The notes under the pieces were generated by a model. The model saw only the letters and a program-made list of their open reading frames with translations, was not told the origin of the DNA and did not search any database. A DNA stretch of 64,000 nucleotides from Methylobacter sp. KS41 (GTDB lineage Bacteria > Pseudomonadota > Gammaproteobacteria > Methylococcales > Methylomonadaceae), in assembly GCA_002862125.1 (NCBI GenBank), contig PHSP01000003.1:1488001-1552000 (forward strand). Reading direction: 5' to 3'. Positions 9,328 to 48,311 of this stretch are shown piece after piece; the first letter of the stretch is position 1; each line of letters opens with the position of its first letter. The position numbers were made by a program, and so were the translations under genes.

Positions 9328-9675
9328 TTTTGTGCAAGATGATACATTTTGCAGTGTAAAAGAGCCGCAAATTATTTCTCATTCAGCGTCCCGTGTTCCA
9401 GTTAAATTTAACAAAACGTGGATTCAACTCCGCACTGCAATCCTAGCAATCATGAGACCTGTTGCAAAAAATCCAGTTGTTTAACAACCTTAAATTTTTC
9501 TAGCAGGATAAATTCAAAAAAATTTTACTTATCGGGTTGGATTTTTTACACTGATTCTATTTGCTCAATTCCATAGACGTTTCCAAAAACAATAGTAACA
9601 GAGTTAAATCAATGAAAGCATTTACAATAACAGCGACGACCGATGAGGCAGTCACAACGATGATCAGGTAGGAAT
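9328..9675. other. Divergent intergenic region with nested inverted repeat
   Basis: 348 bases without a gene between the methyltransferase and the DUF6524-like gene. It contains the palindrome-rich element at 9466-9547 described separately; otherwise nothing recognisable. Confidence 0.5.
9466..9547. repeat. Nested inverted repeat, possible MITE or cruciform
   Basis: Outer arms AAAAAATCCA (9466-9475) and TGGATTTTTT (9538-9547) are perfect inverses. Inside are a 13-base palindrome GTTGTTTAACAAC (9476-9488) and inner arms AAATTTTT and AAAAATTT. The whole 82-base unit can fold on itself. No target duplication was found beside it, so whether it is a miniature transposable element is open. Confidence 0.45.
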
Positions 9676-38239: not shown

Positions 38240-38249
38240 ACCTTAACCC
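38240..38249 (+). repeat. Target-site direct repeat, copy 1
   Basis: ACCTTAACCC directly to the left of the first ISAs1-family element. The same ten bases recur at 39453-39462 and 40663-40672. Length fits the 8-10 base duplication known for ISAs1 elements. Confidence 0.85.
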
Positions 38250-39452
38250 CAGGGCAATCGCACTTAAAAACACTTGAAAATAGAATTTAGATGAGGTAAT
38301 AAGTCTATCATTTTGATTCTAAATGATTGCAAAACCTACACCATCTATAATTCATCACTTTTCGAGTATTAAAGACCCGAGGGTAAACAGACAAAAGAAG
38401 CATCAGTTGCAAGATATTTTCTTTATCAGCATCTGCGCTGTGATTTGTGGAGCTGATAACTGGGTTGCTATTGAAGAATTTGGACGTGCAAAAGAGGAGT
38501 GGTTTACTGAAGTGCTTGGTTTAAAGCATGGCATACCCTCGCACGACACCTTTGGTGAAGTTTATGCCGCTATTGATACCGAACACTTTAGCAGCTGTTT
38601 TTCTCGCTGGATTGCTGACCTAGCCAAGCTAACCGAAGGCGAAGTGATTGCGATCGATGGCAAGTGCTTAAGGCGCAGCATAGACAAGGCTTCAAAAAAA
38701 GCCGCTATCTACATGGTCAGTGCCTGGGCGCAACAGAATAACCTGGTTTTAGGCCAAGTTAAAGTTGACGATAAATCGAATGAAATCACGGCTATTCCCA
38801 AGTTACTGTCACGGCTGGATATAGCGGGAGCAGTGATTACTATCGATGCGATGGGTTGCCAAAAGAAAATAGCCGAACAGATTAAACGACAAGGCGGCGA
38901 TTATGTGTTTAGCCTGAAAGGCAATCAGGGTAATCTGCATGACGATGTTAAAACATTTTTTACTTCGTCTTTATCCCAGCTGGTTACCGCTGTTAGCTAT
39001 GAAGGTGAGCATGGCCGAATCGAAACACGTTCGATTCGAGCAACCGCCGATATAGCCTGGTTACAAGAGCGGCATAATTGGGACAGTCTGCAAAGCATTA
39101 TCGCCGTCACTGCCAAAAGAGAAATCGGCGACAAAGTTACTGAGGAAACACGCTATTTTATCAGCAGCCTTAATGCGAATGATCCAAAGCGATTAGAGCG
39201 TGTGGTGCGAGCGCATTGGGCAATTGAAAACAATCTTCATTGGGTTCTTGATATTGCCTTTGATGAAGATAGCAATCGAGCTCGCAAGGGGCATAGCGCT
39301 GCGAACCTGGCGGTGATACGGCATATCGCTCTGAATCTGATCAAGACTGAAAAAACAGCTAAGGTCGGCGTCAAGATCAAACGATTAAAGGCCGGATGGG
39401 ACAACGATTATTTACTTCGTGTCATGGGGATAATTTAAGCGCGATTGCCCTG
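38250..39452 (+). mobile_element. ISAs1-family insertion sequence A, intact
   Basis: A 1203-base element with 19-base terminal inverted repeats: left CAGGGCAATCGCACTTAAA (38250-38268), right inverse CAGGGCAATCGCGCTTAAA (39434-39452), one mismatch. It encodes one transposase and is flanked by the 10-base repeat ACCTTAACCC on both sides. It lies about 150 bases upstream of zur. Confidence 0.9.
38323..39438 (+). CDS. ISAs1-family DDE transposase (element A)
   Basis: Full-length 371-residue transposase with an N-terminal DDE-associated domain (DPRVNRQKKHQLQDIFFISICAVICGA) and a DDE catalytic domain: first Asp in AIDGKCLRR, second in TIDAMGCQKKIAEQI with the downstream GGDYVFSLKGNQGNLH, and the Glu in HWAIENNLHWVLDIAFDEDSN. 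It looks functional. The stop falls just inside the right terminal repeat. It is only moderately similar to the transposase of the neighbouring element B. Confidence 0.93.
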   Translation: MIAKPTPSIIHHFSSIKDPRVNRQKKHQLQDIFFISICAVICGADNWVAIEEFGRAKEEWFTEVLGLKHGIPSHDTFGEVYAAIDTEHFSSCFSRWIADLAKLTEGEVIAIDGKCLRRSIDKASKKAAIYMVSAWAQQNNLVLGQVKVDDKSNEITAIPKLLSRLDIAGAVITIDAMGCQKKIAEQIKRQGGDYVFSLKGNQGNLHDDVKTFFTSSLSQLVTAVSYEGEHGRIETRSIRATADIAWLQERHNWDSLQSIIAVTAKREIGDKVTEETRYFISSLNANDPKRLERVVRAHWAIENNLHWVLDIAFDEDSNRARKGHSAANLAVIRHIALNLIKTEKTAKVGVKIKRLKAGWDNDYLLRVMGII

Positions 39453-39462
39453 ACCTTAACCC
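39453..39462 (+). repeat. Target-site direct repeat, copy 2 (shared)
   Basis: ACCTTAACCC, the only sequence between the right end of element A and the left end of element B; it serves as flanking repeat for both. Confidence 0.88.
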
Positions 39463-40662
39463 CAGGGCGAGCGCATATAAATGCTTAAGAAAATATTACC
39501 TTAGCGCGATATTCATCATTCCAAGCCGCTTTACGACGTTTTTTGGCAAGGCTTAGTGAAGAACTCTCCCGTTCAAACAGATTCAGGCACAAGTGGCGGA
39601 GAGTGGTCATAATCGCGGGGCCATTGCCTCTGCGAATACGACTGGCATCCTCGCCAAAAATGACATCCAAGCGCCAGTGCAGACGGTTCTCCACGCCCCA
39701 GTGTCCCCGCACAGCTTGCGCAAACGTCTTTGCCTCAGCAGCAATCGAGTTAATGAAGTAACGGCGTTCAAGCGTTTGCGTGCCGCCTTGTCGGCATTCC
39801 CGTTCCGCCATGCCGATACTTCGAAGGCCCTTCCAATTTTGCGGGTCGGGTAAGGTGCGCAGGTCATCAGTAATCCAGTAGCGTCTGACCTCAAGTCGGC
39901 CATGATTTTTATCCGCTTCTTCCGTGAAGGCGTGAGCGACGCCTGTAAAATGATGAGCGCACGCGGTGGTAAAAAAGTCCTCAACAGCTTCATGTAAGTT
40001 GCCCTGATTGCCTTTCAAGCCAAGCACATAATCGCCACCCTGATCAATGATCTGTCCGGCAATGGCGCGTTGGCAGCCCATGGCGTCAAGAGTCACGATG
40101 CAGCCTTTCAACGCTAAGAGTTCTAGGAGTTTCGGGATGGCGGTGATTTCATTGGATTTCTCATCAGTGGCTTCTTGACCTAGCGCCAGCCTATTCTCAC
40201 ACGCCCAGGCGCTAACCATGTGTAATGGATTTCGCTGGTTTTTGCGATCGCGCGAACCTTTTGCGGTCTTGCCGTCTACAGCGATGATTTCGCCTCCGGT
40301 ATGCCCGGTCACTGCCTGTGCCCAATTCATAAAACAGTCCCGGAATTTCTGCGGCGATAACCGGCATGGCACATAGGCAATGCAATCATGCGAAGGAACG
40401 CCATTAGCCAATGGGATACACTGGCGTAACCACTCCAGCTGTTCTTTGCCAAAATCCTCAATGGCTTCCCAGCCATCAGAACCACTGGCTACGGCACAAA
40501 TAGCGAGAACAATAATGTCGATTAAGGCATGGCATTTGTTTCTTTCAATTCGGTGATCGGGTAGCGAAGAGAAATGGGTTGTTAAATCGGGTATCACGAG
40601 AGCCTTTTAATGTTGTTTCTCGTGATATTTTCCTAACTTATTGTTTATATGCGCTCGCCCTG
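39463..40662 (-). mobile_element. ISAs1-family insertion sequence B, intact
   Basis: A 1200-base element with terminal inverted repeats CAGGGCGAGCGCATATAAA (left, from 39463) and its inverse ending at 40662. The transposase is on the minus strand. Flanked by ACCTTAACCC on each side. Its end sequence differs from element A after CAGGGC, so it is a different IS and not a copy. Confidence 0.9.
39485..40597 (-). CDS. ISAs1-family DDE transposase (element B)
   Basis: 370 residues, full length. N-terminal domain DHRIERNKCHALIDIIVLAICAVASGSDGW, then AVDGKTAKGSRD, TLDAMGCQRAIAGQI with GGDYVLGLKGNQGNLH, and HWGVENRLHWRLDVIFGEDASRIR for the catalytic acidic residues. All appear present. It shares the family plan with element A but many positions differ, so the two elements arrived independently. 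Confidence 0.93.
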   Translation of the reverse strand: MIPDLTTHFSSLPDHRIERNKCHALIDIIVLAICAVASGSDGWEAIEDFGKEQLEWLRQCIPLANGVPSHDCIAYVPCRLSPQKFRDCFMNWAQAVTGHTGGEIIAVDGKTAKGSRDRKNQRNPLHMVSAWACENRLALGQEATDEKSNEITAIPKLLELLALKGCIVTLDAMGCQRAIAGQIIDQGGDYVLGLKGNQGNLHEAVEDFFTTACAHHFTGVAHAFTEEADKNHGRLEVRRYWITDDLRTLPDPQNWKGLRSIGMAERECRQGGTQTLERRYFINSIAAEAKTFAQAVRGHWGVENRLHWRLDVIFGEDASRIRRGNGPAIMTTLRHLCLNLFERESSSLSLAKKRRKAAWNDEYRAKVIFS

Positions 40663-40672
40663 ACCTTAACCC
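40663..40672 (+). repeat. Target-site direct repeat, copy 3
   Basis: ACCTTAACCC directly after the right end of element B, identical to copies 1 and 2. Confidence 0.85.
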
Positions 40673-40698: not shown

Positions 40699-40818
40699 AA
40701 ACACTACCAAGGAGATGATTATTCAGAGCGCAAACCAGAGTAAGATTTAACCGCCGACGCGACAACTAGATTGACAATTTCCATCCTGCTCGTCCTCCAC
40801 GATGCCGGAACAATATAG

Positions 40819-41196
40819 CTATTGTTGTTTCAACAGGTAATCCGCCAGTTTCAAACTATGCTTCACAATATTCCTCGGGTAACTGTAAATCGCCGGTCCA
40901 TAGGCAGTGTCAACATATTCAACATTAAACGCCGTATGGTGAAAGCTGATATTACTGGGATAACTATATATTGCCGGTCCGTAGGCTGTGTTCACATAAA
41001 TAATTTCTGCGTTCTGAACTTTCGTGGCCGGAGCCGGATTGGGCGCATACCCGATGTCTTGAGCATAAGCCCGATTGTTATAGATCAAGGCGCCACCGCC
41101 GTCTGTCGTTTCGGCCTTAATGCCGGTTGCGTTCAAAACGCCGATGGTCAATACTGTAATTACCGCGATGATGTGTGTTATGGATTGTGTTTTCAT
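40819..41196 (-). CDS. Small exported protein with two TAYGPAIYSYP repeats
   Basis: 125 residues with a signal peptide (about 1-28, cleavage near IKAE). The mature part carries two nearly identical 17-residue units, YVNTAYGPAIYSYPSNI (67-83) and YVDTAYGPAIYSYPRNI (94-110), separated by ten residues and followed by a short helical tail. I do not recognise the family. A strong ribosome binding site (GAGGAGAG) stands seven bases before the ATG. The gene is monocistronic; a Tyr/Pro-rich exported repeat suggests a structural or binding role in the periplasm or envelope, which is a guess. Confidence 0.7.
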   Translation of the reverse strand: MKTQSITHIIAVITVLTIGVLNATGIKAETTDGGGALIYNNRAYAQDIGYAPNPAPATKVQNAEIIYVNTAYGPAIYSYPSNISFHHTAFNVEYVDTAYGPAIYSYPRNIVKHSLKLADYLLKQQ

Positions 41197-41695
41197 GATC
41201 TCTCTCCTCTAAATTACTCGTTTACTCACGCCGGTTAGCCCTTTTTTAATTTTTAGGGCTTTGTCCTGCATGACGAGCACTATAGAGAGAGAAAGAGTTA
41301 TATGTAAAATCGATTGTTTATATATTTAAAATAGATAATATCAATCGTAATATGAACAAAGCTGGACAGTCTCCGTTAGAAGCGTTAGATTTCAGTTAGC
41401 TTCTTGCAGCGCTTTCATGTCCTTATTTTTATGATCGATACATAGTGAAATGGTTAAGACTTGGCGCACTAACTTAGGGCAATTCTGGATTGAGCTGCCC
41501 AGATTTCGCGCATAATCGCATGTGCCAAAAACTTTAATTTAGCAACAGATAATGACCTATGAAACAAGCTGATTATGATGGGACTGGCGTACTCCCGATG
41601 TCAGTTGAATGAATTGACCTGATCCGTTGTTCATCTGTACAAATCAGTGTTCATTAGTGGCTCAACAACCTTATTCAGGGGGGGGTTAAACATAA
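41197..41695. other. Divergent intergenic region
   Basis: About 500 bases between the small exported protein gene and the kinase gene. A stem of AGCCCT and AGGGCT (about 41237-41258) with a T/A-rich loop lies in the presumed 5' leader of the minus-strand gene. The end carries an eight-G run (about 41678-41685) just before the ATG at 41696. No gene is seen. Confidence 0.5.
41236..41258 (-). promoter_or_regulatory. Hairpin in leader of the small exported protein gene
   Basis: AGCCCT and AGGGCT arms around an A/T-rich loop of about 11 bases, some 40 bases upstream of the minus-strand ATG at 41196. It may be an RNA stem-loop in the leader or an operator; no poly-U run follows in the minus direction. 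Confidence 0.3.
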
Positions 41696-41707
41696 ATGGC
41701 GTGATTT

Positions 41708-44700
41708 TTGCTGCATTCAAATGAAAGCTGCTCAATACTTACAGAGAATATCCATATCAATCACAGAGCCTCAAAAATACGCCGGGATTATAACGCCTGG
41801 GTTGCCAATGAAATGTTGGAAGACTATGCGCTTAGATTTGCACCGCGCACATTCCGGAAATGGTCGGAATTTCAAGTCGCTAATACCGCATTCGGCTCTA
41901 CGTCTTTTTTGGTGCTGGAAGCGATCGGGGGTTTTCTATCCATCAATTACGGTTTTACCAATGCCTTTTGGGCGATTCTGATTGTCGGCATTATTGTTTT
42001 TATTACCGGTTTGCCCATCAGTTATTACGCCGCGCGTTACAATATCGACGTTGATTTGCTAACACGCAGCGCTGGTTTTGGCTACATCGGCTCTACCGTC
42101 ACGTCATTGATCTATGCTTCTTTTACCTTCACGCTATTCGCGCTCGAAGCGTCCATCATGTCCCTGGCTATCGAGCTGTATTTCCATATCCCGCTTTCCA
42201 TAGCACATTTTATCAGCGCAGTCATAGTCATTCCTCTGGTGACTTTTGGAGTTACGACTATCAGCCGGTTGCAGCTTTGGACGCAACCGTTGTGGCTGGT
42301 TCTGCTGATTACCCCTTATATTGCCGTATTCATTCGCGAACCGGAGTCGATGATGACTCTGCAAGCCTACTTCTGGATTGCAGGCAGCGGACATGGCTTT
42401 GACTGGTTGTTGTTCGGCAGCGCGACCACCATCGCCTTCTCGATGGTAGCTCAGATCGGAGAGCAAGTTGATTTTTTGCGGTTTATGCCGGAGTTGACTG
42501 ATAAAAACCGGCTGCGCTGGTGGCTGGCGACCATAAGCGCAGGCCCTGGATGGATTATATTCGGTATGGTCAGGCAACTGGGCGGCGCTTTGCTTGCTCA
42601 TCTTGCTGTTCGTCATGGCATAACGCCGGTGCATGCGCATGAGCCTACGCAGATGTATCTGGCGGCTTATGGTGAATTATTCGGTAATACCGGTTTAGCC
42701 TTATCGGTTACTTGCCTGTTTGTAGTGGTGTCCCAGATAAAAATCAATGTCACCAATGCCTATGCGGGTTCGCTTGCCTTGTCGAACTTTTTTTCGCGTC
42801 TGACTCACAGTCATCCTGGACGGGTTATATGGCTGGTTTTTAATGTTTCCATAGCCCTCTTGCTAATGGAATTCGGCGTATTTGGCGCTTTGGAAAAGGT
42901 ATTGGGATTATTTTCCAATATGTCGATAGCCTGGATCAGCGCGGTTGCGGCGGAATTTCTGATTAATAAACCGTTAGGATTGAGCACTAAAGCGGTTGAA
43001 TTCAAGCGCGCCTATCTGCCTGATCTCAACCCGGTTGGCATACTGTCCACGCTGTGCGCTTCCCTGGTATCGATTTTGGCCTATCTGGGGTTATTCGGTG
43101 TCTTCGCACAGGCATTTTCAGCGTTTATTTCCCTGGTCCTGGCCTTTTTGCTTGTCCCGTGTATCGCCTTTATCAACGGAGGCGAGCGTTATCTTGCCCG
43201 TGACAGCAGTCTTAAGAATCACTCCTTGCTCAGCCGGTGCAGTATTTGCGAAACTCATTTCGAGCGGGAAGACATGGCTTATTGTCCAGTCTATGAAGGC
43301 AGTATTTGCTCGCTTTGCTGCACGCTGGACTCGAATTGTATGGATGCTTGCAAGCCGGGCTTCCGGCTGGATGATTATCTGCATCGTTTTGCCGGATACT
43401 GTTTGCCGGGTTGGTTGAATCTGGGCGTACGGCTGCGCTTGATACGCTTTAGTCTGTTGTTTTTATTTCTGACCGTTTTAACCAGTGTGTTTGTCGGGAT
43501 TATTTATTATCAGGATTTATTGACTGCCGAACATTATCCGCATTCCTTTCACCTGTTGCTGGAAAATTTTGTTAAAGTTTACGCCTCATTACTGGTATTT
43601 ATCGGTTTATGTACCTGGTGGCTAATTCTGAATGACGAAAGCCGGCGCGTGGCGCATGAAGAAATAGCCAAGCAAACTCAGCGGTTATTGATGGAAATTG
43701 CTGAACATGAAAAGACCGACGCCAAGTTGCAACAGGCGCTTAAAATGGCGGATCGTGCAAATACTGCAAAAAGCCGTTTCCTTAGCAGTATGAGTCATGA
43801 AATACGCACACCCTTAAACAGTATTATCGGCTACGCCTATATTTTGCAAAAAGATCCGGAAATACCCGCTCATAGAAGGCAGGCGGTGGATATTTTAAAA
43901 CGTAGCGGCGATCATTTATCAGCGCTGATTGAAGACATTCTGGATATTGCCAGGATCGAAGCCGGTAAATTTGAGTTGCGCAAAGAGCCTATCGATTTCC
44001 CCAAATTCATTGGTCACTTAGTCAGTATTTTTAAGCCGCAAGCTGAAGAGAAGGGCTTGTCCTTTTACTGTCAAATCGTCAACACGCTGCCTCAACGAGT
44101 TCGTGGAGATGAAAAGCGGGTTGGGCAAATATTGATTAATCTACTTGGCAACGCGGTCAAGTTCACCGCATCTGGCGAGATCGTATTTCGTATTAGTTAC
44201 AGTTGCGGAGTAACGACATTTCAGGTCGTCGATACCGGCCCTGGTATACACAATGATCAATTGCAAAACATTTTCCAGCCGTTTACGCAATTACCAAATG
44301 AGAATCTAGGCTCCGGCAGCGGCTTGGGATTAACTATCAGCAAAATCCTTTGCGAAATAATGGGTGGAGATCTGGCTGTTGTAAGCGATCAGGGCCAAGG
44401 CTCCGTATTTACCGTACGACTGCTCCTGCCCAATCTGGGCGGTGAACAGAAATACTTTCAGGAAGAAGACATCAACGGTTATCAAGGAAAAAATCAGAAA
44501 ATTCTTATTGTCGATGATCAACCCGAACACCGGCAGTTGATTATGTCTATTTTACGGCCTTTGGGCTTTGGCATGATCGAGGCCGGTTGCGGCGAAGAAT
44601 GCCTCAATCAGGTTCAAAAGCACTTGCCTGACCTCATTCTGCTGGATTTATCCATGCCTGGGATTGATGGCGCGGAAACAGCGCATCAACTGCGTCAAAA

Positions 44701-45112
44701 AAACTATGCCATGCCCATAGTGGTCTTAAGCGCAAACGCTTACCCTTCGAACCGGCTTAGCGCCATTAATGCCGGTTGTAATGACTTTTTATCCAAGCCC
44801 ATACAAGTGAGTGAATTACTCAGCAAACTAAAACTGCATCTGGCTCTGAAGTGGTCTTATCAGGAAGATGCGCCAACATTGCAAAGCACTCATCAGCTGC
44901 CTCCATTTGAAAACATTCAGGAGTTAACCGGTTTTGTTCGAATTGGCGATTTATTAGGACTTAATCATCACCTGCGCGAGCTAATTCAGCAGCATCCTGA
45001 ATATACCCATTTCGCCCAAGAGGTTATGAGGCTGGCTGGCGAATTCCGGCTGGTAGAAATCAAAAAACTACTGCATATTGCTAGTGAGGAACTAACCAGT
45101 AATGACGGGTAA
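41708..45112 (+). CDS. NCS1-permease-linked hybrid sensor histidine kinase
   Basis: A 1134-residue membrane protein. Residues ~40-500 are a nucleobase:cation symporter-1 type permease (about 12 helices; KWSEFQVANTAFGS...GGFLSINYG). Next is a Cys-rich segment (511-549: CSIC, CP, CSLCC, C, C), two more helices (~578-640), a HisKA domain with phospho-accepting His697 in MSHEIRTPLNSIIG, an HATPase domain (GSGSGLGLTISK) and a receiver domain with Asp980 (LILLDLSMPG). The permease probably acts as the sensor. Its partner regulator gene overlaps the stop by 11 bases. Start is uncertain: TTG 41708 lacks a binding site, whereas ATG 41696, well placed after an AGGGGGGGG run, is in frame but hits TGA at codon 3. 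Confidence 0.85.
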   Translation: MLHSNESCSILTENIHINHRASKIRRDYNAWVANEMLEDYALRFAPRTFRKWSEFQVANTAFGSTSFLVLEAIGGFLSINYGFTNAFWAILIVGIIVFITGLPISYYAARYNIDVDLLTRSAGFGYIGSTVTSLIYASFTFTLFALEASIMSLAIELYFHIPLSIAHFISAVIVIPLVTFGVTTISRLQLWTQPLWLVLLITPYIAVFIREPESMMTLQAYFWIAGSGHGFDWLLFGSATTIAFSMVAQIGEQVDFLRFMPELTDKNRLRWWLATISAGPGWIIFGMVRQLGGALLAHLAVRHGITPVHAHEPTQMYLAAYGELFGNTGLALSVTCLFVVVSQIKINVTNAYAGSLALSNFFSRLTHSHPGRVIWLVFNVSIALLLMEFGVFGALEKVLGLFSNMSIAWISAVAAEFLINKPLGLSTKAVEFKRAYLPDLNPVGILSTLCASLVSILAYLGLFGVFAQAFSAFISLVLAFLLVPCIAFINGGERYLARDSSLKNHSLLSRCSICETHFEREDMAYCPVYEGSICSLCCTLDSNCMDACKPGFRLDDYLHRFAGYCLPGWLNLGVRLRLIRFSLLFLFLTVLTSVFVGIIYYQDLLTAEHYPHSFHLLLENFVKVYASLLVFIGLCTWWLILNDESRRVAHEEIAKQTQRLLMEIAEHEKTDAKLQQALKMADRANTAKSRFLSSMSHEIRTPLNSIIGYAYILQKDPEIPAHRRQAVDILKRSGDHLSALIEDILDIARIEAGKFELRKEPIDFPKFIGHLVSIFKPQAEEKGLSFYCQIVNTLPQRVRGDEKRVGQILINLLGNAVKFTASGEIVFRISYSCGVTTFQVVDTGPGIHNDQLQNIFQPFTQLPNENLGSGSGLGLTISKILCEIMGGDLAVVSDQGQGSVFTVRLLLPNLGGEQKYFQEEDINGYQGKNQKILIVDDQPEHRQLIMSILRPLGFGMIEAGCGEECLNQVQKHLPDLILLDLSMPGIDGAETAHQLRQKNYAMPIVVLSANAYPSNRLSAINAGCNDFLSKPIQVSELLSKLKLHLALKWSYQEDAPTLQSTHQLPPFENIQELTGFVRIGDLLGLNHHLRELIQQHPEYTHFAQEVMRLAGEFRLVEIKKLLHIASEELTSNDG

Positions 45113-46043
45113 ATATTCTCATATTAACGGTATCGTCATGATTATCGATGATACTCCAGGCAATCTGGCGTTATTAACTGAAACGCTGTCAGAAGCCGGA
45201 TACCGCGTATTGGTCGCCACGGATGGAGCATCGGCATTGGAGCAAATTGCTTATCTGACACCGGATATTATTCTGCTGGATGTTTTGATGCCGGGCATCG
45301 ATGGTTTTGAAACGTGTAACCGGCTTAAATCCGAACCCGAAACGGCCAACATCCCAGTTTTATTTATGACTGCGTTAAGCGAACTGGATGATCTGTTGCG
45401 TGGATTTGGCGAAGGCGCAGTTGATTACCTCGTAAAGCCGCTGCGTCCGCCTGAAGTGCTGGCGAGGTTGGATGTTCAGCTGAGTCAGTCCAGGAATTTG
45501 CGTCGAGTCGAAAATTTTTTAAACAATAGCCCATTTTCCGCCTTAGCCATAGATTCATCCGGTAACATTACCTGGTTGACTCCCGAAGGCGCACGCTGGA
45601 TGGACGAATTTCAGCAAAAACACATGTTAACCGGTAAATATGAATTGAATTCGCCGTTACCCAAACCGATACTTGAATGGGTTAAACAAAGCTTGGCGGT
45701 TGCTGAGAAACCGGAAGAGAGATCGTTTGAAAGCTACCGGGCAGGCATCAGTTTTTCTGTAAAAATAACGCCGTGTCAAAAAACGGGTGAATATTTTCTC
45801 ATATTGGAAAAAAATACGAGGGAATGGGATATTGATTCGGTAAAAACCTCCATGGGACTGACTTTTCGAGAAGCGGAAATATTGATGTGGATTTCCAGAG
45901 GCAAGACCAATAAAGAAGTTGGTGTTATTTTGGGCAGTAGCCCGCGAACAATAAATAAACACCTGGAACATATTTTTGAAAAACTTGGCGTCGTCACCCG
46001 TGCCGCGGCGGTCTCAATTGTTTTACAACGAACTTCAATTTGA
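45102..46043 (+). CDS. LuxR-type response regulator
   Basis: 313 residues: receiver domain (about 10-125) with acidic pocket IIDD and phospho-acceptor Asp60 in IILLDVLMPG, a middle region resembling a PAS domain (NNSPFSALAIDSSGNITWLT), and a C-terminal LuxR/GerE helix-turn-helix (LTFREAEILMWISRGKTNKEVGVILGSSPRTINKHLEHIF). It should be phosphorylated by the permease-linked hybrid kinase encoded just upstream, whose last 11 bases it overlaps. Its targets are not evident; no transport or catabolic operon follows. Confidence 0.9.
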   Translation: MTGKYSHINGIVMIIDDTPGNLALLTETLSEAGYRVLVATDGASALEQIAYLTPDIILLDVLMPGIDGFETCNRLKSEPETANIPVLFMTALSELDDLLRGFGEGAVDYLVKPLRPPEVLARLDVQLSQSRNLRRVENFLNNSPFSALAIDSSGNITWLTPEGARWMDEFQQKHMLTGKYELNSPLPKPILEWVKQSLAVAEKPEERSFESYRAGISFSVKITPCQKTGEYFLILEKNTREWDIDSVKTSMGLTFREAEILMWISRGKTNKEVGVILGSSPRTINKHLEHIFEKLGVVTRAAAVSIVLQRTSI

Positions 46044-46142
46044 CATGCCGGGTTTAACCCTGAGGCCTGAGTTTTGTTAATGAATTTTGATCGGCAACCG
46101 CGATAAGACGAAATCTTCTTGAAAAACGCAAAACATCAAACA

Positions 46143-46607
46143 ATGAACCATAAATCTTATAACCCGTCCGACGAAAATCAGATTAGCCTGTTAATAACTA
46201 TTGGCGTCTCTAAACTTTTAAAAAACAGTGTTATTTTTATTCATGCGCTGGCATTGGCCGCATGTTTCGCCAATGCTTTGAATGTAACTGTTAAGGTGGC
46301 TTTATGTGCATTAATCGTCATGCATTGCCGCTTAACTGTAAGGCGCTTAAACGCTGAAAATCACACCATCAGGTATACCGAAGCGCTAGGTTGGGAGCTG
46401 TCAGGAGGGCGTGACTTTTCTTCAATTCAGATTATGAAATCAACCGTTATTACAACACAGGTACTGTTTTTACATTTTAAATACTCGTTTCAAGCTCAAT
46501 CCTGGAAGTCTTGCCATATTAAAACGCTTCTGGTCTTAAAGGATGCGTTTGCCGAGGAGGATTATCGATTTCTTATCGTAAAATTGAAAACAACAGCAAT
46601 TAAATAG
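46143..46607 (+). CDS. YgfX-like inner-membrane protein
   Basis: 154 residues with a cytoplasmic N terminus, two close transmembrane helices (about 32-65) and a C-terminal cytoplasmic part. The IFIHALALAACFANAL...VMHCRLTVRRL pair and the final LLVLKDAFAEEDYRFLIVKLK fit the YgfX (CptA) family, which usually pairs with SdhE; no sdhE gene is adjacent. I use the ATG at 46143; the frame opens from a TTG eight codons earlier, and neither start has a clear binding site. Function here is uncertain. Confidence 0.55.
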   Translation: MNHKSYNPSDENQISLLITIGVSKLLKNSVIFIHALALAACFANALNVTVKVALCALIVMHCRLTVRRLNAENHTIRYTEALGWELSGGRDFSSIQIMKSTVITTQVLFLHFKYSFQAQSWKSCHIKTLLVLKDAFAEEDYRFLIVKLKTTAIK

Positions 46608-47036: not shown

Positions 47037-48311
47037 TTGTTTGATCGTCCCGACTCAGGTGAGCGAGCTGTTCTTGTTCATCTAACTTTTCATTCCGGGC
47101 AGGAAGATCTTTTAGAATTAAAAGAATTGGCTAAGTCAGCCGGAACCGATCCTGTTTATGTAGTCACAGGCAGTCGAAAACGTCCCGATCCAAAATATTT
47201 TGTCGGCAAAGGCAAGCTCGATGAGCTTAAAACAGCGGTAGAAGCTTACTCTGCCGATGTTGTTTTATTTAATCACCCGCTTGCACCCAGTCAGGAAAGA
47301 AACCTCGAAGGCGCTTTGGGTGTTCGCGTGGTTGATAGAAACGGCTTGATTCTTGATATATTTGCGCAACGCGCGCAATCCTTTGAAGGCAAGCTGCAAG
47401 TTGAGCTGGCGCAATTGAAACACTTATCAACCCGGCTGGTAAGAGGCTGGACGCATTTGGAGCGGCAAAAAGGCGGCATTGGCCTGCGCGGTCCGGGTGA
47501 AACCCAGCTGGAAACCGATAGACGCTTATTGGGTCTGCGAATTAAGCAGATTCAGCAGAGATTGGACAAGGTCGATAAGCAACGGCATCAAGGACGTAGT
47601 AAACGTAAAAAGGCCGAGGTTCCATCCGTTTCTCTAGTGGGTTACACCAATGCAGGCAAATCCACGTTATTCAATGCACTTACCGGCGCCGATATCTTCA
47701 CGGCTGATCAGCTGTTTGCAACCCTGGATCCTACCTTGCGCAGCTGTAAGTTGCCTAATAGCAGCGAGATTGTTCTTGCTGATACTGTCGGCTTTATCCG
47801 TCATTTGCCGCATGAATTGGTGGCGGCATTCAGGTCGACCTTACAGGAAGCCAGTGAAGCCGATTTATTACTGCATGTAATTGACGCATCTAGCGAGGAT
47901 AGGGATGAAATTATTACGCAAGTTAATCAGGTTCTTGAAGATATAGAGGCTGACAAAATCAGGCAAATTGAAGTTTTCAATAAAATTGATTTATTGGATA
48001 ACATTCAGCCGCACATTGATCGGGATGAAGCTGGAAATCCGGTCCGGGTCTGGTTATCCGCCGGAAATGGAGCGGGTGTCGATCTGCTTTTTCAAGCGTT
48101 GGCGGAACTGTTTTTGATTACCAAAGTAAAAAAACGCTGTTATTTACAAGCTGATCAAGGCAATATCAGGGCAAAATTATTTTCTTGCGCAAAAATAATT
48201 GACGAGCATATTGATGAATCAGGTGTGAATGAATTAGTCATTGAAATTGATGTAAGACACTTGGGCTTGTTAAAAGAAGTCAAAAATGAAGAAATCGCAC
48301 TGAAAAATTAA
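47037..48311 (+). CDS. hflX: Ribosome-splitting GTPase HflX
   Basis: A 424-residue GTPase of the Obg-HflX group that splits stalled ribosomes under stress. It shows the HflX domain (DPVYVVTGSRKRPDPKYFVGKGKLDEL, then GPGETQLETDRR), the G1 loop GYTNAGKST, DTVGFIRHLPHELV (G3) and NKIDLLD (G4). The start is TTG at 47037, seven bases after GGAGT; no ATG is available upstream of the conserved sequence. Part of hfq-hflX-hflK-hflC. Confidence 0.93.
   Translation: MFDRPDSGERAVLVHLTFHSGQEDLLELKELAKSAGTDPVYVVTGSRKRPDPKYFVGKGKLDELKTAVEAYSADVVLFNHPLAPSQERNLEGALGVRVVDRNGLILDIFAQRAQSFEGKLQVELAQLKHLSTRLVRGWTHLERQKGGIGLRGPGETQLETDRRLLGLRIKQIQQRLDKVDKQRHQGRSKRKKAEVPSVSLVGYTNAGKSTLFNALTGADIFTADQLFATLDPTLRSCKLPNSSEIVLADTVGFIRHLPHELVAAFRSTLQEASEADLLLHVIDASSEDRDEIITQVNQVLEDIEADKIRQIEVFNKIDLLDNIQPHIDRDEAGNPVRVWLSAGNGAGVDLLFQALAELFLITKVKKRCYLQADQGNIRAKLFSCAKIIDEHIDESGVNELVIEIDVRHLGLLKEVKNEEIALKN

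Follow-up and report, generated by a model that had tools for sequence, protein, structure and literature searches.

What does a histidine kinase respond to when its sensory half resembles a permease, and which genes does it control when no target operon lies beside it? The question is raised by a gene pair at 41708–46043 on the forward strand of a 64,000-nucleotide stretch of the Methylobacter sp. KS41 genome (assembly GCA_002862125.1, contig PHSP01000003.1, positions 1,488,001 to 1,552,000; hereafter the window, with positions counted from its first letter). We analysed the pair and its relatives in silico, and consider it probable that the kinase is an NCS1-type transceptor kinase for amides (urea/formamide) and that it forms, with an adjoining LuxR-type regulator, a two-component system responsive to small amides. 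The genes that accompany the kinase make urea and formamide assimilation its very probable regulon. The stretches and genomes compared are labelled L and G, respectively; L058 is the stretch of contig C1 in the KS41 genome itself.

A transporter–kinase fusion with a LuxR-type partner

The first gene (41708–45112) encodes an NCS1-type transporter/hybrid histidine kinase of 1134 amino acids. After the transporter, Pfam matched all three of the domains named in the initial annotation: HisKA (residues 687–753, 43766–43966; PF00512, E 6.2e-21), with its H-box motif from residue 696, HATPase_c (residues 800–907, 44105–44428; PF02518, E 1.9e-24) and a receiver domain (REC; residues 932–1041, 44501–44830; PF00072, E 9.8e-28) containing Asp980. 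No Pfam domain passed the cut-off in residues 1042–1134, and a histidine phosphotransfer (HPt) protein elsewhere in the genome was not searched for. The kinase reading frame shares 11 bases with that of the response regulator (45102–46043, 313 amino acids), which comprises a receiver domain (residues 12–123), a middle region and a LuxR-type GerE domain (residues 252–306). An overlapping REC-PAS-LuxR regulator had been proposed; the receiver, the GerE domain and the overlap stand, and the middle region is PAS-like below the cut-off (PAS_10, E 0.19). A motif check found the H-box, N-box, G-box and both phospho-acceptor motifs of the pair intact, and the helix-turn-helix residues of the regulator are strongly conserved among 48 aligned homologues. 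With HisKA, HATPase and receiver domains and an adjoining REC-GerE partner, the pair has the make-up of a hybrid kinase/LuxR-type two-component system.

The start at 41696 given by the initial annotation had to be abandoned, as that ATG is followed by an in-frame TGA at 41702 (reading Met-Ala-stop); the first usable start is a TTG at 41708. From there to the conserved N-terminus near residue 25 (41708–41786) the frame holds no ATG, GTG or second TTG. Residues 1–17 fall outside most homologue matches, and the gene may start at this TTG or at another unusual codon. The fusion itself is genuine and belongs to a widespread family.

The sensor module is of a divergent NCS1 type

The transmembrane module (residues about 38–492, 41819–43183) had been read as an NCS1 transporter, with a Pfam search and structure prediction suggested as checks. 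Pfam gave no support: residues 1–494 matched 0 families at E ≤ 10, and the NCS1 family PF02133 (Transp_cyt_pur) had no match at E ≤ 0.001 across the whole genome. A phmmer search of the N-terminal part against the PDB likewise returned 0 matches. The assignment was borne out by BLASTP, profile–profile comparison and structure. BLASTP aligned residues 38–464 with a Paracoccus permease (25% identity, 442 columns, E 1e-21), a protein that PF02133 does recognise (E 9e-9), and hhalign matched a profile of 47 homologues to four NCS1 proteins with 99.0% probability (E 8e-18, 398 columns). The AlphaFold model (pLDDT 81.4, pTM 0.82) retrieved CodB and Mhp1 at Foldseek ranks 1–5 (CodB E 5.6e-8, Mhp1 1e-7). 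In VIA, CodB reached a Z-score of 32.9 (3.5 Å, 397 aligned) and Mhp1 entry 2x79 one of 27.2 (4.0 Å, 429 aligned); two Mhp1 entries stood at 27.2, the third, 2jln, at 24.6, and the best row from any other protein at 24.7. By sequence, profile and fold, it is a divergent NCS1 module. Because the assignment to NCS1 is positive in both sequence and fold, we prefer it to an SLC5 input domain; the lack of a Pfam match to the SSS (SLC5) domain in the kinase says little alone, since Pfam also misses NCS1 here.

Residues were compared in an alignment of 16 proteins: six kinases, seven free-standing transporters of the same subfamily and three canonical NCS1 proteins. E147, in transmembrane helix 3 (TM3), is Glu in 6/6 kinases and 7/7 subfamily transporters and Gln in 3/3 canonical proteins, and sits at the position of Mhp1 Q121 in the phmmer alignment. 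At K345 (TM8), Lys is shared by the kinases and their two nearest transporters, the other five having Arg and the canonical three Cys, Ser or Gly; the position lies near Mhp1 S312/T313, where the register is uncertain by one residue. We take Mhp1 Q121, S312 and T313 to be substrate- or sodium-binding. E71 (TM1) is present in all six kinases and invariant in 54/54 aligned kinases, its place being taken by Phe, Val, Leu or Ile in the seven related transporters.

A conserved cysteine segment connects module and kinase

Between module and kinase, residues 511–549 (43238–43354) carry eight cysteines, at 511, 514, 526, 534, 537, 538, 544 and 548, in the pattern C-x2-C-x11-C-x7-C-x2-CC-x5-C-x3-C. Their conservation among homologues, on which the initial annotation had staked its reading, is complete: all eight are invariant in 54/54 aligned sequences, a set that includes the window kinase and covers gamma-, beta- and alphaproteobacteria, cyanobacteria and one myxobacterium. 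In the model, the linker consists of this segment, built of strands and a short helix, and of two long helices (residues 572–606 and 611–643, 43421–43636). The helices probably form a hairpin leading to the kinase, with a predicted location in the membrane. No Pfam match of any kind fell below E 0.5 in this region, where a STAC linker would sit; whether Pfam has a STAC model was not checked.

Folded alone (pLDDT 72.2, pTM 0.52), the cysteine segment matched largely zinc fingers (PHD, RING, FYVE, ZZ), none of them significantly (Foldseek E 0.2 and VIA Z 4.1 at best), and on the strength of these lone-fold matches the segment, a candidate two-zinc cross-brace finger (FYVE/RING/PHD type) by its eight cysteines, likely binds zinc. 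A profile search against the PDB gave a single match, CRIPT, on the same segment (E 2.1; Pfam CRIPT E 0.51), neither value being significant. A shorter form of the segment is the C-terminal tail of some free-standing transporters that have no kinase. Five of the positions are retained in a Streptomyces transporter 41% identical to the kinase module (L189), four in an Acinetobacter one (L033) and two CxxC pairs in those of Paracoccus L159 and Streptomyces L186; the transporters of L187, L188 and L190 retain none. This occurrence on kinase-less transporters suggests a structural or coupling role within the transporter module rather than the metal or redox sensing first envisaged. Gating of the kinase by a segment that senses redox state or metal would suit the eight invariant cysteines, and the four or five positions kept in the two closest free-standing transporters. 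We nevertheless find it improbable: the segment exists without a kinase too, the folds nearest to it, each a weak match, are mostly zinc fingers of a structural kind, and no metal or redox gene recurs in six annotated kinase loci, where such genes turn up singly (an ArsR/SmtB regulator in L037, for example).

The kinase accompanies urea and formamide genes

Within the order to which the window belongs, the N-terminal 644 residues of the kinase were matched in 130 of 251 genomes. A scan of named genomes confirmed at least 586 relatives, and the 80 retained include cyanobacteria and a Polyangium; 535 plasmid records also match, 342 of them from Klebsiella. By record titles, the relatives span at least three phyla.

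To these 80 loci we added seven plasmid records and surveyed the neighbours of the resulting 87 named loci by tblastn. The conserved catabolic partners that the initial annotation had suggested looking for were found: urt genes in 65 loci (UrtA in 62), FmdA in 28 and urease in 24, with at least one of urt, fmdA (formamidase) or urease near the kinase in 73. FmdA counts miss other formamidase types, since the annotated formamidase of Klebsiella L035 escaped the query. The kinase is divergent from, on the same strand as or convergent with its partner operon, depending on the locus, and a regulator-like match was present in 81/87 loci, counting any position in the stretch. A purine or nucleobase regulon was rejected, as these urea and formamide uptake and hydrolysis genes recur at kinase loci instead; a nucleobase as ligand, which the initial label suggested, is likewise not supported. 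As a separate observation, the formamidase gene at G177:C2:751092-752224, some 1.2 kb away from a kinase gene, gave two overlapping partial matches, which may reflect a frameshift.

The association also holds at the level of genomes. UrtA exceeded the cut-off in 113/129 kinase genomes of the order against 8/122 others (Fisher p 9e-43, without correction for relatedness). Of the 130 matching genomes, 129 were represented in the rows listed, and G200 was counted among the 122. Among the matches listed, 100 of 150 kinases had urtA or fmdA on their own contig at a distance of at most 15 kb. The KS41 genome has a single UrtA, in a porin-like–urtABCDE–ureDAB(C) cluster on contig C1, and no FmdA match. 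Its UrtA–E pass their NCBIfam cut-offs, and the FmdA of a relative passes that for formamidase; the porin-like protein has an ExtI match below the NCBIfam cut-off and a best PDB match of E 0.28. The earlier remark that no target operon lies nearby is thus correct for the window, and fails for most relatives, which carry one adjacent; here it lies on contig C1, together with a candidate operator.

A gene divergent from this cluster (L058 8620–9417) encodes a 265-amino-acid protein that begins like a lipoprotein and, at the thresholds applied, matched nothing in Pfam, NCBIfam or the PDB (phmmer against the PDB, 0). Its relatives adjoin a porin-like–urt or fmdA operon and the kinase in 13/87 named loci.

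A candidate operator at urt promoters

A search for a shared LuxR-type binding site, also suggested initially, was productive. A TAC-N10-GTA dyad was present in 28 of the 52 non-redundant intergenic regions examined, where 0.5 would be expected; dyads that overlap one another build the palindrome ATACGTCA-NN-TGACGTAT, found at many promoters of the partner genes. Its 7-2-7 inverted repeat is of the kind bound by NarL-type regulators. Sites with up to three mismatches were present in 45 of 61 regions: 34/36 between urtA and kinase, 10/10 between the porin-like and 265-residue-protein genes, 1/1 between fmdA and the latter gene, and 0/1 between hypOB3b and kinase, the remainder being considered below.

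Since the motif was derived from these same regions, we made a held-out test. A matrix trained on 35 of the 36 urtA–kinase regions, none labelled Methylococcales, was applied to the window's order. The hand-picked test set held 24 stretches from 23 kinase-bearing genomes in which urtA is not near a listed kinase (some, such as G146 and G235, carry a second kinase) and eight stretches from UrtA-positive genomes that lack the kinase; L202 was scanned and left uncounted, since a kinase is near. Upstream of urtA, 19 of the 24 stretches had a site of 12.7–29.4 bits, and L197 had one of 8.8 bits. The four without a site are cut by contig ends (L176 at about 1.6 kb, L194 at 0.5, L200 at 1.0 and L061 at 0.9 kb). 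In the kinase-less genomes, 0/8 stretches had a site (maximum 0.4 bits), four of these stretches (L166, L171, L172, L201) holding less than 2 kb upstream of urtA. In 400 simulated regions, the 99th percentile was 9.8 and the maximum 17.0 bits. The palindrome accompanies the urt promoter and was absent, in the tested stretches, where the kinase is absent. This result (19/24 against 0/8) suggests that the operator stays with the urt promoter and depends on the kinase. Given the null maximum, single sites near 13–15 bits are not decisive; recurrence and doubling at one place are.

In KS41, overlapping sites at C1:2394477-2394510 lie between the divergent 265-residue-protein gene and the porin-like–urt–urease operon (12.6 bits at L058 9478, overlapped by 4.8 bits at 9494), about 90 bases before the longest porin-like reading frame and 60 bases before the divergent gene. 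No comparable site precedes the kinase in the window (best −6.9 bits). An operator-like match at 47796–47813, within a reading frame (47037–48311) that we take to be hflX, was set aside as probably coding; the corresponding frame of L060 has a similar match.

At the Acinetobacter locus L033, a free-standing transporter of 548 residues, 42% identical to the sensor of the kinase (E 4e-137), is divergent from the kinase gene. The sole strong site in its 21.9 kb (17.7 bits) lies between the two, which connects the two paralogues, sensor and transporter, through a single operator. Next comes an ABC transporter of amino-acid type; the stretch has no urt, FmdA or urease match.

Several observations weigh against a urea/formamide regulon under this operator. 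None of the 13 ureA–kinase regions (e.g. L108, L110 and L130, with the kinase divergent from ureABC) has a site with up to three mismatches; these loci possibly use a different site or regulator specificity. Besides L033, 27 further loci were scanned, 10 with a site of at least 11.7 bits and 17 without, and L036, L092, L099, L119, L127, L128 and L142 bear urt genes and no site (in L099 and L128, urtA is close to the stretch end). Several test sites (12.7–15.3 bits) fall under the null maximum. The KS41 site has three mismatches from the consensus, and seven places genome-wide come as close, fewer than the 16 of a reversed control pattern; the case for this site therefore rests on position, doubling and relatives. 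Finally, 14/87 loci lack urt, fmdA and urease in the available stretch; some are short contigs, and the long stretches among them are L088 and L145 (cyanobacteria), L106 (Azonexus), L115 (Rhodocyclaceae), L148 (Polyangium) and L033. UrtA over the cut-off is likewise missing from 16/129 kinase genomes.

Proposed function and ligand

In the mechanism we propose, the NCS1-type module would bind urea, formamide or both (or a closely similar compound) within the membrane, in the way that a permease holds its substrate, and the cytoplasmic cysteine finger and helix hairpin would relay the resulting change to the kinase. Once phosphorylated, the LuxR-type regulator would bind ATACGTCA-NN-TGACGTAT and activate an operon for urea/formamide uptake and hydrolysis: porin-like gene–urtABCDE–ureDABC in this genome, urtABCDE–fmdAB or fmdAB–urtABCDE elsewhere. 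The ligand is put forward on account of the target genes.

The same regulon could serve another signal: the kinase might sense the cell's nitrogen status or flux by way of the finger, the hairpin or some unseen partner, leaving the NCS1 module as a mere membrane anchor or transporter. CbrA continues to signal when its transporter domain is missing, and for this reason a review considers an intracellular signal likely (PMC7918813); the fmd operon of Methylophilus methylotrophus is ammonia-repressed (PMC10781810). We think this unlikely: by hand count, 111 of the 134 invariant columns of the 47-sequence alignment fall within residues 38–492, which, like the Acinetobacter kinase/transporter pair, suggests a conserved binding function.

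Nor do we expect the ligand to be some other small ureide or amide (allantoin, hydantoin, acetamide or guanidine) whose breakdown yields urea or formamide; we rate this as quite unlikely. Six free-standing relatives were read in annotated records: allantoin permease is the label of three and cytosine permease that of one, and hydantoinase genes adjoin four of the six; Mhp1, moreover, is a hydantoin transporter. The surveyed loci recur with urt, fmdA and urease instead, a weak counterargument as allantoin and guanidine genes were not searched for there.

A more specific form of urea/formamide sensing seems to us possible rather than probable. The kinase would then represent a widespread class of transceptor kinases not described before, and would contain a retired NCS1 urea/amide permease in which the sensor-only E71 neutralises K345 near the Na2 site, ligand binding drives the kinase and not transport, and the zinc finger of the transporter acts as coupler.

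Two plasmid-borne relatives show other arrangements. In Paracoccus ferrooxidans (L190 2989–7236), the gene of a free-standing relative annotated as allantoin permease precedes those of a distinct sensor kinase of dCache type and of a sigma-54 regulator, and the group adjoins hydantoinase genes. In Streptomyces (L186 2998–4980), an NCS1-like permease with a CxxC...CxxC tail is fused to an SCP2 sterol-carrier domain (PF02036, E 1.9e-5).

Surroundings of the gene pair

Upstream of the kinase, 38240–40672 holds two adjacent transposase genes, 38323–39438 (DDE_Tnp_1, DDE_Tnp_1_assoc) and 39485–40597 (similar by eye), both with matching end repeats (TTAACCCCAGGGC...), apparently two related insertion sequence (IS) copies back to back. 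We rejected them as the cause of the separation of kinase and urt operon. Window positions 40786–41398 and 41453–41800 align with two relatives whose kinases are likewise remote from the operon, which suggests that the separation predates the IS elements. Directly downstream of the regulator, 46119–46607 encodes a CptA-toxin-like membrane protein (PF07254, E 7.7e-8).

Comparison with known systems

Urea and formamide are environmental nitrogen sources, and in the open literature searched we found no description of a membrane sensor that switches on urt, fmd or urease genes, nor any study of an NCS1–kinase fusion or of a kinase controlling urt/fmd. Clusters of urt and formamidase genes are described in PMC13060141 and PMC13209695, in whose main texts the terms 'histidine kinase' and 'response regulator' are absent. 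In an Ectopseudomonas genome, a hybrid kinase and LuxR regulator adjoin a second urtABCDE (PMC13296017, in the part consulted). The fmdCABDEF operon of M. methylotrophus likewise combines porin, formamidase and amide/urea uptake genes and, as a review reports, is induced by formamide and urea; it has a putative positive regulator inside the operon, and the consulted part of the paper mentions no kinase (PMC10781810).

Mhp1 and CodB share the fold of the sensor module, with alignable TM3 and TM8 positions. The module differs from them in escaping PF02133, in having Glu at the place of Mhp1 Q121 and Lys or Arg near S312/T313, and in Glu71, which only the kinases have.

As to architecture, the SLC5/STAC sensor kinases (CbrA, CrbS/MxtR, RpuS) similarly fuse a transporter-fold input module to a histidine kinase. 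CrbS, too, is of the hybrid type and works with a LuxR-type partner, which requires an imperfect inverted repeat (PMC5715377), and CbrA transports histidine (PMC13022988). Those kinases have a 13-helix SLC5 module and a four-helix STAC linker (PMC13022988, PMC5715377), in contrast to the NCS1 module, eight-cysteine segment and helix hairpin found here, and the operator and regulon differ as well. The ammonium sensor kinase Ks-Amt5 is likewise a nitrogen-source transporter turned sensor and fused directly to a kinase; it binds without transporting, transport being reported lost. It differs in belonging to the Amt family, in lacking PAS, HAMP and STAC domains and in having a response regulator not identified in that paper, as far as consulted (PMC5764959).

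The family is new as the NCS1 variety of known transporter–kinase transceptors. Its relatives are carried on many Klebsiella plasmids, its free-standing counterparts allow sensor-versus-transporter swaps, and the candidate operator makes ligand and regulon directly testable. It adds NCS1 to the transporter folds, SLC5 and Amt, known as kinase input modules.

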